Origin: Planctomycetota bacterium
GTDB lineage: Bacteria > Planctomycetota > SZUA-567 > JAFGGJ01
Assembly: GCA_016930595.1 (NCBI GenBank)
Contig: JAFGGJ010000065.1
Location: 1-64,000 of the forward strand
Length of the DNA: 64,000 nt
Direction of reading: 5' to 3'
Shown here piece after piece: positions 7,565 to 19,008 of this stretch. The number at the start of each line of letters is the position of its first letter. Within the stretch, counting starts at the first letter, position 1. Both the position numbers and the translations under genes were made by a program. A model generated the notes under the pieces. The model was not told where the DNA came from. It was given only the letters and a program-made list of their open reading frames with translations, and did not search any database.

Positions 7565-8261
7565 GTTGTCGTAACCCCTCAATTCACGGTCGCCTGAAGC
7601 TGAATACGTGGAATGTGTGCGGTGTGGGAGGTTGTCGTAACCCCTCAATTCACGGTCGCCTGAAGCGGAATCTTGATTGGCTGTTCATGGTGTGGGGTTG
7701 TCGTAACCCCTCAATTCACGGTCGCCTGAAGCCGGGCGTATCTCCACGACAAGAGCCATGCAGTTGTCGTAACCCCTCAATTCACGGTCGCCTGAAGCGG
7801 GGGAAGCAACCGGCCATTCTCATACCATGTTGTCGTAACCCCTCAATTCACGGTCGCCTGAAGCAGTTGACCAGGACTATCTCCCCGACTGGTAGTTGTC
7901 GTAACCCCTCAATTCACGGTCGCCTGAAGCCCGTACGGCGGCTGCCACTTCCCGCGGCGGTTGTCGTAACCCCTCAATTCACGGTCGCCTGAAGCGGATA
8001 TATGGGTACGTGTTTATCCTCGCACGTTGTCGTAACCTCTCAATTCACGGTCGCCTGAAGCCGCCGACGCCAATCAGACCTACTTCAGGTTCGTTGTCGT
8101 AACCCCTCAATTCACGGTCGCCTGAAGCGTACTTACCCGCGTATATGACCGCGTATGGGGTTGTCGTAACCCCTCAATTCACGGTCGCCTGAAGCGCGAG
8201 GACGGCTGCGAAGTCTTTTCCAGCGGTTGTCGTAACCCCTCAATTCACGGTCGCCTGAAGC
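7565..8261 (-). CRISPR. Type V-G CRISPR array, 11 repeats and 10 spacers
   Basis: Eleven 36-bp repeats start at 7565, 7631, 7697, 7763, 7829, 7895, 7960, 8026, 8093, 8160 and 8226. On the plus strand they begin GTTGTCGTAACCCC and end GGTCGCCTGAAGC. All are identical by eye except the repeat at 8026, which reads CCTCT where the others read CCCCT. Spacers are 29-31 bases, mostly 30. The adjacent tracrRNA candidate and its promoter place transcription on the minus strand, so the processed repeat would begin GCTTCAGGCG and end TTACGACAAC next to the spacer. The leader then lies at 8262-8348 and the newest spacer is probably 8196-8225. Spacer targets cannot be searched here. Confidence 0.98.
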
Positions 8262-8348
8262 CCACCGGCTGCAACCTGTTGCGTCCTAATGGCTTAGGCC
8301 AAAAACCACAACAAAAAAATGGCCTAAACACCGCTTTTCACAGAGCAA
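8262..8348 (-). promoter_or_regulatory. Putative CRISPR leader
   Basis: An AT-rich stretch between the tracrRNA candidate and the array, unlike the GC-rich surroundings. It contains an 8-bp inverted repeat (TTAGGCCA at 8294-8301, TGGCCTAA at 8320-8327) whose loop is T-rich on the minus strand. This could be a leader signal, a weak terminator or processing structure after the tracrRNA, or both. A weak minus-strand promoter-like pair (TTGTTG, CATTAG) lies within it. Confidence 0.5.
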
Positions 8349-8349
8349 A

Positions 8350-8451
8350 ACCGTGAATTAATGGGTTAGTTACCTCCGGCTCTGGGTTCCATCCTTCGGC
8401 GTCGAAACACCTCGGAAGTATGCCAGAGCTAACGACTCACGACAAGGTAAC
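8350..8451 (-). ncRNA. tracrRNA candidate for Cas12g
   Basis: Read on the minus strand, 8368-8350 is TAACCCATTAATTCACGGT. It can pair with bases 11-29 of the minus-strand repeat with one A-G mismatch and one G-U pair. TTGTCG at 8445-8440 can pair with repeat bases 30-35, so together the two segments cover repeat 11-35. Between them is a long hairpin: GTTA-GCTCTGG (8433-8423) faces CCAGAGC and TAAC (8385-8379, 8372-8369). GTTACC at 8451-8446 can alternatively pair with GGTAAC at 8374-8369. The predicted 5' end at about 8451 follows a consensus promoter; the 3' end is uncertain. Known Cas12g requires a tracrRNA, which agrees. Confidence 0.85.
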
Positions 8452-8457
8452 GAATCT

Positions 8458-8485
8458 ATTATACCCGAATATCGCGAAGTGTCAA
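8458..8485 (-). promoter_or_regulatory. Consensus sigma70-type promoter for tracrRNA/array
   Basis: On the minus strand a perfect TTGACA (8485-8480) and a perfect TATAAT (8463-8458) are separated by 16 bases. The -35 box starts five bases after the cas12g stop codon. Initiation is expected near 8451, exactly where the antirepeat-containing RNA begins. This is the best promoter match I found in the window and it fixes array polarity. Confidence 0.88.
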
Positions 8486-8489
8486 AGAG

Positions 8490-10784
8490 TCATTGGTCTG
8501 GAAGAACAATATCACCCCAGAAAACCCGGCCAAGCACCTTCGCCGCATTTTCATCGCAGTCCATTCGATTGTTGCATCCATCATATTCGCAAATGAAGCT
8601 GCCATTCCCCTTATTCGTGCGCCACAGGCGATGGTTCCCCTGTTTTCTGCCGCACTCAGAACAGGTCTGTGAAGAATAGAAGTAAGGTGTCGTCACAACA
8701 CGCATTCCACGCTCCACGGCCTTTTCCGTTACTTTGTGGCGCACACGCCCGTGCGCGTAAAAAGCGAGACGGCGTTTCTTGTCACTGTCATACTTGGCAA
8801 CTTTATCATATCCCGGCAACGGGAAGCCTCTCTGGCTTTCAAAAACGATAAGGTCGACATCGTTTTCTTCCGCTTTCTTGATTACCCGTGAAGCAACCAG
8901 CCGCGCCCAGTCGCGTATCATCCAACGTATATGCAGTGAGAAGCGCCGCATGTCATTCGGGCCGAGTTGCGGTTGGTCCCGGGTGTCCGTCCCTGAAGCA
9001 GGTTTCTTACCGGGGCTGCGTTTTTGGCTTATCTGCGACGCCTCAGCGGCCCAAGCCTCAAGATGTCTGCCTATATGGTCCTTTGTAAGGCCACTATACG
9101 GTTTTTTGTTACTGCCGGAACCGGATTTTTCATCTGGGAAAATGAGTTTGTCCAGTTTCAGCGTTTTCAGTTTTTCGCTCTTCTGAAATTGTCTGCCGTT
9201 AAACAGGGCAATCGCATTACCGACCTGGCCTGTATCGACGCACAGGATCTTGAGTTCCTTTTCCGGATCGCCGCTGAAGGATTCCAGCAACAGCTTGCGG
9301 GCCTCACGCAAGAAGGCATTGTCCTGACGCCATCGAGGATATTTACGGCTGCGCAGGTCAGCTATGTCATCCTGGCTGACGGCAAACCGTGATTGTTTAT
9401 GCTCGACTTTGAACCGGAATCCGACGCGGGCCCTTGAGCCGATGAAATGAATCTGAACGCTCGATATTTCAGCATTACCAGGCTGGATGTCATATTCCGG
9501 CGGCCAGGGATGAAAGCCGAACGGGATGAACTCGTCTGCCGCCATCGTATCCATGCGGAGCCTGAGAATGGAGTGTTTATAATCCACACCATAGTAATCC
9601 TTGCCAAATATTTTGGGGATAGAGAGGCGGCGCTTCGAGGGATAGGTGAAGGAAGGTTTTTTAGGCCCGGAGAGGAAATCCTTGCGCCACTCCCGGTAGA
9701 GCGAATCTAGTTCTTGCAGTCGCGGTTCACTTGAAAGCCGCGCCTTGTACAGCTTGCACTTTTCGGTGTGCTCATTGTACGGACAAGGTTCCTTATCATC
9801 ATTCTTTTGGGGGCAGTGCGGGAGGTCGCCATTGCCTTTTCTGGCAACAGTTCCTTCGGTAATACCCAGTGCCTGTAGATAATCAGCCCACCAAGTCTTT
9901 GAAAATTTGTGAGCTTGGGGTTCTTTTTTCAGAAGCAGTTCCATGAGCTTTTTTCGGTTGTTGTGCAAGTGGGGATTTTTCTGGCGGATAGCAAGGTACG
10001 TGCGAACATTCTCCTCGAAATACTTATTAGCTTCGCTGTTGGCCCGGAATTTGAGGTATTTCACACAAAGCTGAGCGTGGTTTTTTATGCGAAAACGTTC
10101 TCCATTATACAGGCAACCGGTATTGCCTTTCTGCAATTGTTCCCAGGTGCAAACCCGCGGATTTTTCCTGTCAACGCCAAGGTCTTTGAAAATACGGTTA
10201 AACTTGCTGATGGCATCTTCGGTCAGTTGCGGATGTTTTTTCTCCCATGCTTCCTTTTCTTTCAGCCATTCTTCCCTGCGCCTCTTCCAGTTTTCAAACG
10301 GCATGAGATAACGAGCAACTATAAGGTCTGCAGAAGCTTTGAGGAGCACCACAATATGCCTGTCATCATAACCGGCCACTCTCTTGAACAGATTGGTTGC
10401 AGTCTGTGTGGGAGGAATGCGCTTTACATGGTCTGTAGAAGAAACAACCTCGTCGGGCACATTACTTAACGCTTTTTCTGCATTTCCCAATCCTGCCGCG
10501 GATTTGAAAGCAGCCAGGCGAGTACGATCGACGAGTTTTTCGTCGTCGATGAATTGTTCCGGCTCGAGGAAGAAGCTCCAGAAAGGCTCCGTCTCTTTCC
10601 CTCTTTTGCCGTCCGGACGGAAACTCATAACCCACTGGCAAATTTCAGACACGTCCAGATTGAACTGTTCAAAATGCCTGCGGAGCTTGCGGACGTTTGA
10701 TTTGAACTCCAGCCTGCTTTGCCCATCAAGCCGACGGAGTCCTCTTACAAGCGTTCTTTCTTCGCGATATCTTGTTGCGGACAC
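8490..10784 (-). CDS. cas12g: Cas12g, type V-G RNA-guided effector nuclease
   Basis: 764 residues from GTG 10784, or 776 if read from GTG 10820. I recognise Cas12g from memory of Cas12g1: RYREERTLVR near the start, QFN.DVS..CQW...FRP, EISSV..HF.G.R.R.GFRF, IRDWARL, VTEKAVERGMRVVT and VLGRVFWG at the end. Numbering from GTG 10820, the RuvC triad is D529 (LCVDTG), E661 (LIVFESQRGF) and D756 (CDENAA), with a zinc ribbon C720, C723, C744 and C749. Characterised Cas12g is a tracrRNA-dependent RNA-targeting RNase with collateral RNA and ssDNA cutting. The 10784 start is preferred because GGGAAGG precedes it and a TATAAT lies only three bases before 10820. Base composition is less GC-rich and less skewed than that of its neighbours. 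Confidence 0.96.
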   Translation of the reverse strand: MSATRYREERTLVRGLRRLDGQSRLEFKSNVRKLRRHFEQFNLDVSEICQWVMSFRPDGKRGKETEPFWSFFLEPEQFIDDEKLVDRTRLAAFKSAAGLGNAEKALSNVPDEVVSSTDHVKRIPPTQTATNLFKRVAGYDDRHIVVLLKASADLIVARYLMPFENWKRRREEWLKEKEAWEKKHPQLTEDAISKFNRIFKDLGVDRKNPRVCTWEQLQKGNTGCLYNGERFRIKNHAQLCVKYLKFRANSEANKYFEENVRTYLAIRQKNPHLHNNRKKLMELLLKKEPQAHKFSKTWWADYLQALGITEGTVARKGNGDLPHCPQKNDDKEPCPYNEHTEKCKLYKARLSSEPRLQELDSLYREWRKDFLSGPKKPSFTYPSKRRLSIPKIFGKDYYGVDYKHSILRLRMDTMAADEFIPFGFHPWPPEYDIQPGNAEISSVQIHFIGSRARVGFRFKVEHKQSRFAVSQDDIADLRSRKYPRWRQDNAFLREARKLLLESFSGDPEKELKILCVDTGQVGNAIALFNGRQFQKSEKLKTLKLDKLIFPDEKSGSGSNKKPYSGLTKDHIGRHLEAWAAEASQISQKRSPGKKPASGTDTRDQPQLGPNDMRRFSLHIRWMIRDWARLVASRVIKKAEENDVDLIVFESQRGFPLPGYDKVAKYDSDKKRRLAFYAHGRVRHKVTEKAVERGMRVVTTPYFYSSQTCSECGRKQGNHRLWRTNKGNGSFICEYDGCNNRMDCDENAAKVLGRVFWGDIVLPDQ

Positions 10785-10822
10785 AGCAACCCTTCCCTGT
10801 TTGCGGCCCCTACTGCCCACAC

Positions 10823-10853
10823 ATTATACATGCGGCAACGGTATGCGTCACAA
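10823..10853 (-). promoter_or_regulatory. Promoter of cas12g
   Basis: A perfect TATAAT (10828-10823, minus strand) lies downstream of a TTGTGA element (10853-10848) at a long 19-base spacing. Initiation would be near 10815, inside the longest reading frame. This supports translation from GTG 10784 and an effector transcript separate from the capA operon upstream. Confidence 0.6.
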
Positions 10854-17229: not shown

Positions 17230-19008
17230 CTATTCGGACAGGTTCACGAGAACGGGGCGGCTTTCCTGCACGGCGAGGCTTGCGACAGCGAGGACGCGCC
17301 GCGGGGAGGTTTCAAGCGTGAGGTTATAGTAGAGGCCGGTGGAGAGGGCATCGCCGGCGGCGGGCCACCTGTGAAAAGCGGTCCTGTCGATAAGGATATC
17401 TTCGAACCGGCCGGCGGAGAGCCTAGTACGGGCGGTATAGAGGGCGCCGTCCTGGGCCTGGAGCCAGACTATCAATTCACAATCCGAGCGTGCGGCGGCG
17501 GAAATTCTGAGGCGAAAGCGGCGCTTGGTTTCCCAGGCCACGCTGGAAAGCTGAAGGCGGCCGGAATCATCGGAGAGCAATACGCTCCTGCCGAGATACG
17601 TACTTAGAGAGCCGCCCCGCCAGCCCTGCGCGCCGAAGTTGTCGCCGGAGAAGACGAAGTTGGTCGTATCGGCGGGCCCGCCGGGGCCGGAGAGGTGGAT
17701 ACCAACGGCGGCGCCCAGCACAAGCAGTGCGACGGCAACGAGAGGAGCCAGATAGAAATAGGCGGGGCGGGAGGGCGGGGGCTTGGCGGGAACGGCTTTC
17801 GCCGTGGGGATGCGGCGTTCCCTCGGCGTGCCGAGCGGAGTGGGGCGTTCCCTGGGGAGGGTTTCGCCCGGGAGAGGGTCGGCGGCGACAAGGCTGTCGG
17901 AGCCGATATCGACGGAACGTAAGGCATGGGGCTCGCGCAGCCGCACGGGATCTTCGCCCCTGTAGACGACGAGGAGGTCTTTCATGAGCTCGCGTGCGGA
18001 CTGGTAGCGATCTTCACGTTCCTTGCCCATCATGCGCGTGATGACGTTGCAGATGCCGTCGGAGAGCGTACGTTCGATTTCGCGCGGGCTGGGGAGCTCG
18101 CGCACGAGGTGCTGAGTGAGGATATCGGCGGCGGTCTTGCCTCGGAAGGGCGGGAGACCCGTAAGGAGTTCATAGAGGGTGGTACCGAAGGAGTAAATAT
18201 CGCTGCGGATATCCAGATCCTTTTCGCCGCGTGCCTGTTCCGGGGAGATGTAGAAGGGTGTACCCATCATCCTGCCGGAGAGAGTGAGGCGAGGCATGGG
18301 GCGTTCGACCCAGAGTGCGAGACCCATGTCGGCGAGCTTGGCGACGCCTTCATGATCGACGAGGATATTACCGGGCTTGATATCCCTGTGAACGAGGCCC
18401 TGGTCGCTGATATGTTCGAGAGCGCGGGCGATCTGGATGGCCATGGAAAGGGTATCGCGTTCGGGGATACGGCCGCTTTCGGAGAGCATTTCCGCGGTGC
18501 TCATACCCTGAACGTATTCCATGGCGATGTAGTGATAGCCGTCGGAGTAATCGGCATCGAGGACCTTGACGATGTTGGGGTGGTCGAGGATGGAGCCGGA
18601 GAGGGCTTCCCTGCGGAAACGTTCGAGGAGGTTGACGCGGCGCGCGTGGCTGCGCGGGAGGACTTTGAGGGCCACGGTGAGGCCGCTATCGAGGTCCTGG
18701 GCCTTGTAGACGGCGCCCATGCCGCCTTCGGCGCGTAGGGCCAGGAGCCTGTAGCGGCCGATACGCGTGACTTTAGCGGCGAGGGCCTTCTGCTGCCTGA
18801 GGAGACGGCGGAGCTGGCTTCTGGTGAGGGAGCCGTGCCTGACGAGGCACTGTCCGATGGGACAGTACCTGCCGGCGGCTTCGTTTTCCTGCTGGTCACA
18901 GAGAGCGGTATGCAGGTCGTCCTCTTCGAGGAGACCGGCCTTGAGGGCCAACTGGCCGAGGCGAATATCTTCGAGCAAGAGACGTCTCCATGGCACATTC
19001 CGCGTCAT
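17230..19008 (-). CDS. Membrane Hanks-type serine/threonine kinase with GspE_N-like head
   Basis: A 592-residue receptor-like kinase. Residues 10-75 resemble the GspE N-terminal domain (RLGQLALKAGLLEEDDLHTAL). The kinase spans about 84-350 with glycine loop RAEGGMGAVYKA, K115 in VALKVL, HRDIKPGNI (D209) and SPEQARGE. The magnesium motif is DMG (227-229), not DFG, which some active kinases tolerate. One transmembrane helix lies at about 417-437, and an extracytoplasmic beta-rich domain of about 150 residues follows. The kinase at 25222 has the same head domain twice, hinting at a shared signalling scaffold. Confidence 0.9.
   Translation of the reverse strand: MTRNVPWRRLLLEDIRLGQLALKAGLLEEDDLHTALCDQQENEAAGRYCPIGQCLVRHGSLTRSQLRRLLRQQKALAAKVTRIGRYRLLALRAEGGMGAVYKAQDLDSGLTVALKVLPRSHARRVNLLERFRREALSGSILDHPNIVKVLDADYSDGYHYIAMEYVQGMSTAEMLSESGRIPERDTLSMAIQIARALEHISDQGLVHRDIKPGNILVDHEGVAKLADMGLALWVERPMPRLTLSGRMMGTPFYISPEQARGEKDLDIRSDIYSFGTTLYELLTGLPPFRGKTAADILTQHLVRELPSPREIERTLSDGICNVITRMMGKEREDRYQSARELMKDLLVVYRGEDPVRLREPHALRSVDIGSDSLVAADPLPGETLPRERPTPLGTPRERRIPTAKAVPAKPPPSRPAYFYLAPLVAVALLVLGAAVGIHLSGPGGPADTTNFVFSGDNFGAQGWRGGSLSTYLGRSVLLSDDSGRLQLSSVAWETKRRFRLRISAAARSDCELIVWLQAQDGALYTARTRLSAGRFEDILIDRTAFHRWPAAGDALSTGLYYNLTLETSPRRVLAVASLAVQESRPVLVNLSE

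Follow-up and report, generated by a model that had tools for sequence, protein, structure and literature searches.

The guide RNA of Cas12g1 (PDB 6XMF, 6XMG, 8I16 and 8I3Q) has been described as an sgRNA with two stems, two anti-repeat regions and two R:AR duplexes, in which mutation of the GUC at −100 to −98 of the short duplex leads to loss of activity, and mutations of the protein residues K539, E541, H576, D631 and H624 abolish or severely reduce activity via the same duplex (PMC10511118). The tracrRNAs of V-B, V-F and V-G have been placed in one group, in which a long duplex is combined with a short one and a pseudoknot, the last being stated for Cas12b, Cas12f1, Cas12g and Cas12l (PMC11246509), and another cas12g locus, Karmadon Cas12g, has its tracrRNA in the same place as the locus described here, between cas12g and the array (PMC10707612). 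Our locus lies in a 64,000-nucleotide stretch of planctomycete DNA (contig JAFGGJ010000065.1), which we call the window. The original prediction for this DNA, made from the sequence alone, proposed a two-part antirepeat tracrRNA and knew of no such arrangement for Cas12g. Since two-duplex V-G guides are described in PMC10511118 (two R:AR duplexes) and PMC11246509 (pseudoknot), the guide arrangement is already known, and it is the locus itself that is a new type V-G example. It leaves knowledge of the guide architecture unchanged. What it contributes is a well-formed Cas12g locus, together with eleven related loci from planctomycetes and a V-G tracrRNA model backed by covariation, which is useful when single guides are to be designed for further Cas12g proteins.

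The locus occupies the minus strand of 7565–10820 and runs in a single direction, from cas12g through a promoter and the tracrRNA to the CRISPR array:

8490–10820 (−): cas12g effector gene, an open frame of 776 aa from GTG 10820, with PADLOC and PDB matches
8458–8485 (−): sigma-70 promoter for the tracrRNA, TTGACA-16-TATAAT, agreeing with the consensus at 12/12 positions
8350–8451 (−): tracrRNA, placed by promoter position, homology and a covariance-model match at 8443–8372; both ends predicted, the 5′ end at about 8451
7565–8261 (−): CRISPR array of 11 repeats of 36 nt with spacers of ~30 nt; the crRNA repeat is GCTTCAGGCGACCGTGAATTGAGGGGTTACGACAAC on the minus strand

The direction and order of the array match those in other Cas12g loci. 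Karmadon Cas12g shares the 36-nt repeats and 30-nt spacers, and differs in having 10 repeats, an effector of 768 aa and an assignment to the class Terriglobia; the tracr part of its sgRNA is 91 nt (PMC10707612). The V-B (Cas12b) and V-F (Cas12f1) tracrRNAs resemble ours in the long and short repeat:antirepeat duplexes and the pseudoknot (PMC11246509), but belong to DNA-targeting systems with effectors of other subtypes. We are highly confident that the whole is best explained as a canonical type V-G CRISPR–Cas locus with a tracrRNA and a pseudoknotted two-duplex guide architecture. It combines a Cas12g effector, RuvC D-E-D residues, an adjacent array with ~36-nt repeats and a tracrRNA with a long antirepeat; a second, short repeat:antirepeat duplex and the pseudoknot are supported through homology, with the exact register predicted. 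The sequence, the promoter match, the conservation, the covariation and the conserved protein residues are direct observations. No profile match to cas1 or cas2 was found among the ten genes neighbouring cas12g, which fits a single-effector locus, and searches of viral contigs, phages and plasmids found no Cas12g.

The 776-aa frame matches PADLOC Cas12g with an E-value of 5e-284, and its residues 16–774 match Cas12g1 (PDB 6xmf) with an E-value of 2.5e-200; the two effectors are homologous over their full length. A likely promoter, GTGACG-17-TATAAT, lies upstream of the gene at 10851–10823 (−). Since its −10 box ends at 10823, 3 bases before GTG 10820, the true start is probably GTG 10784 (764 aa), behind GGGAAGGG. 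With regard to the RuvC D-E-D catalytic residues, D529 aligns with Cas12g1 D513, and E661 and D756 are invariant in protein alignment A1. The short-duplex residues of Cas12g1 named above (K539, E541, H576, D631, H624) align with K555, D557, H586, D637 and H630 of the window protein: E541 is replaced by aspartate, whereas the other four are kept, and K555, H586, H630 and D637 are invariant across the three planctomycete proteins compared.

Transcription from the minus strand, as originally predicted, is supported by the 12/12 promoter at 8485–8458, from which we place the tracrRNA start near 8451. In 11/12 loci, TTGAC stands 16–17 nt ahead of a TA-rich hexamer in the same place. Rfam holds no matching family for the tracrRNA; a mir-92 match fell below the gathering score and was ignored. 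Between the tracrRNA and the array of the window no consensus terminator was found. A hairpin, TTTAGGCCA...TGGCCTAAG, with a T-rich loop lies between the tracrRNA and the first repeat (8279–8325, −); it is possibly a leader element, and in several of the related loci, too, a hairpin seems to precede the first repeat.

Within the tracrRNA we distinguish the following segments, from the 5′ end:

8445–8451 (−): 5′ strand of stem P1, GTTACCT, pairing with 8375–8369, with a counterpart in 12/12 loci
8440–8445 (−): TTGTCG, the short antirepeat originally proposed; present, overlapping P1 by one base, and here the alternative
8433–8438 (−): conserved GAGTCG, whose GTCG (8436–8433) is the most likely short antirepeat, predicted to pair with repeat CGAC 30–33; aligned by the covariance model, with a compensatory change in one relative
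8423–8429 (−): 5′ strand of stem P2, GCTCTGG, covarying helix
8398–8411 (−): apical hairpin P4, GGTGT-TTCG-ACGCC, covarying helix
8379–8385 (−): 3′ strand of stem P2, CCAGAGC, covarying helix
8369–8375 (−): 3′ strand of stem P1, AGGTAAC, covarying helix
8350–8368 (−): long antirepeat AR1, TAACCCATTAATTCACGGT, pairing with repeat 11–29, supported by RNAcofold

The long antirepeat was confirmed as first described: TAACCCATTAATTCACGGT pairs with crRNA repeat 11–29 with one mismatch and one G-U, and nothing else outside the array comes within 3 mismatches of that segment's complement, where 100 shuffles give an expectation of 0.00. Its resemblance to the repeat in reverse orientation would also suit a degenerate, non-functional repeat remnant, a reading that we find hardly credible given the promoter, the conserved covarying scaffold and the identical placement in 12 loci. 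A 12 × 12 matrix of tracr–repeat duplex energies was too noisy to reveal coevolution of the antirepeat, the repeat from the same locus coming out on top in only part of the rows.

A search of planctomycete genomes found eleven further Cas12g loci carrying the same module. In each relative, promoter-like hexamers lie 5–49 nt past the cas12g stop (with TTGAC in 11/12 loci, window included), and the RNA opens with a P1 strand, followed by GAGUC in 10/11 and then by the array in the same direction. The order cas12g–promoter–tracr–array is thus common to 12/12 loci, one of which (G1301) retains a single repeat before its contig ends. The cas12g of another (L017, in G938) contains one in-frame TGA, and its promoter, tracrRNA and array look intact.

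From nine of these homologs, all of them planctomycete and with the window excluded, we built an RNA alignment and a covariance model, R1. RNAalifold on the nine returned stems P1, P2, P3 and P4 with 11/22 pairs doubly changed, a covariation higher than in any of the 500 shuffles or any slid control, which provides the check across homologous loci that had been proposed. The best match of R1 in the unseen window falls at 8443–8372 (−), a modest match of 18.8 bits (E 0.022), and the next has an E-value of 1.2; a search of the whole genome with R1 came back empty and is uninformative. In the closest relative, G059 (protein 51% identical), R1 has no match at the tracr position, and P1, P4, GAGUGG and the antirepeat were identified by visual inspection together with cofolding. 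We also exchanged stem partners between loci: own-locus partners formed 79/84 pairs in P1 against a mean of 58.6 for partners from different loci, and also paired better in P2 and P4, a result that supports the stems and does not prove them since the segments were hand-picked. For the short duplex the same test gave P 0.17; this duplex hardly varies, and its covariation comes from one locus. An extra hairpin, GAAGGGGGCCTCATGGCCTTC, directly follows GAGTC in the G1198 tracrRNA (L027:10114–10213), and G059 also seems to carry one after its equivalent segment.

The general fold held as proposed, with GCTCTGG and CCAGAGC self-folding between the antirepeats (our covarying P2) and the duplex contiguous on the crRNA side and split on the tracrRNA side. 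Cofolding of the tracrRNA with the minus-strand repeat (RNAcofold) gives the proposed nested structure as the minimum, at −57.1 kcal/mol. An alternative fold with GTTACCTT paired, in which P1 is formed, lies at −56.7 kcal/mol, equal within error, and leaves the 3′ end of the repeat free for a further short duplex. The pairing of GTTACC with GGTAAC had itself been foreseen, as an optional pseudoknot or switch. The pairing stands, but the switch does not, because every one of the 12 loci has the stem, with differing sequences and covariation. Together, P1 and the short duplex are predicted to make the guide complex a standing pseudoknot.

As originally predicted, TTGTCG (8445–8440) is present and complementary to repeat 30–35, and one further base lengthens the match to 7 nt (TTGTCGT with repeat 29–35). 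When 83-nt cores were shuffled, 5.4% still contained a complement to repeat 29–36 of 6 nt or longer and 1.2% one of 7 nt or longer, so this complementarity alone lies only weakly beyond chance. TTGTCG could be the short antirepeat, the duplex then being a plain nested three-way junction that lacks P1: the pairing belongs to the cofold minimum, its 6–7 bp duplex is stronger than that of the GUCG segment (−7.1 versus −4.6 kcal/mol as lone duplexes) and falls at the 5–7 bp given for short duplexes (PMC11246509), and UGUCGU could still pair with P1 formed. We nevertheless consider it unlikely, since P1 is conserved in 12/12 loci and GAGUC, adjoining P1, stands alone in ten of the eleven relatives; relative to these ten, an additional TGTCGT hexamer separates P1 from GAGTCG in the window and creates the second GUCG. 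GAGUC is invariant in alignment A3, and in the ten relatives the repeat ends in GACACC, so that GUC can pair with repeat 31–33. G059 shares GUCGUGAGU with the window, but its repeat has CCAC(ACC) where the window has CGAC, and its tracrRNA has the matching GAGUGG for GAGTCG, while its first GUCG copy is kept although it cannot pair with that repeat. The short antirepeat here is therefore most likely GUCG at 8436–8433, a register indicated by one compensatory change and positional homology. The homologous antirepeat is thus probably the GTCG within GAGTCG, 7 nt beyond TTGTCG, a placement that fits the published GUC, which by the stated lengths falls ~18 nt from the 5′ end of the 94-nt Cas12g1 tracrRNA. 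Compared by published description, the two RNAs also agree in the number of stems, anti-repeat regions and R:AR duplexes, two of each.

The two GUCGU copies (8443–8439 and 8436–8432) could instead be alternative registers, with guide assembly switching, through sliding of the short duplex or opening of P1, between a nested form in which TTGTCG pairs and P1 is open, and a pseudoknotted one in which P1 is closed and GAGUCG pairs. Both copies can pair, and the nested forms have equal energy whether P1 is formed or not; however, the other loci have no pairing-competent second copy, the tandem arrangement may be accidental or have a different role, and we regard two usable antirepeats as very improbable.

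With the GAGUCG segment as the preferred short antirepeat, we infer transcription, RNA ends, binding and RNase activity as follows. The dedicated promoter just downstream of cas12g would transcribe a tracrRNA of ~100 nt, whose 5′ part would fold as P1 around a hairpin (P2–P4) with the GAGUCG segment exposed, and whose 3′ part would be the long antirepeat. The latter would pair with crRNA repeat 11–29 and the GUCG segment with repeat 30–33, so that the two duplexes would follow one another without a break along the crRNA; P1 and the hairpin, both on the tracrRNA side, would complete the pseudoknot. Cas12g would hold the short duplex where the guide channel begins, and RNA complementary to the spacer is the predicted cleavage substrate of the complex. 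RNA-guided RNA cleavage with collateral activity is a trait of type V-G.

Protospacer searches of phages and plasmids gave no match better than chance. When three spacer 20-mers were compared with viral contigs, only one matched: the spacer nearest the tracrRNA (8196–8225, −) is identical at 25/30 positions, 22 of them contiguous, to two related contigs (L029 and L030). The target is a DNA cytosine methyltransferase-like gene, in sense orientation and with the mismatches at the 5′ side, and the match is probably due to chance. Elsewhere in the window, a serine/threonine kinase at 17230–19008 (−) has strong PADLOC matches to PD-T4-6; kinases of this kind are common in planctomycetes, and the match need not imply a role in defence.
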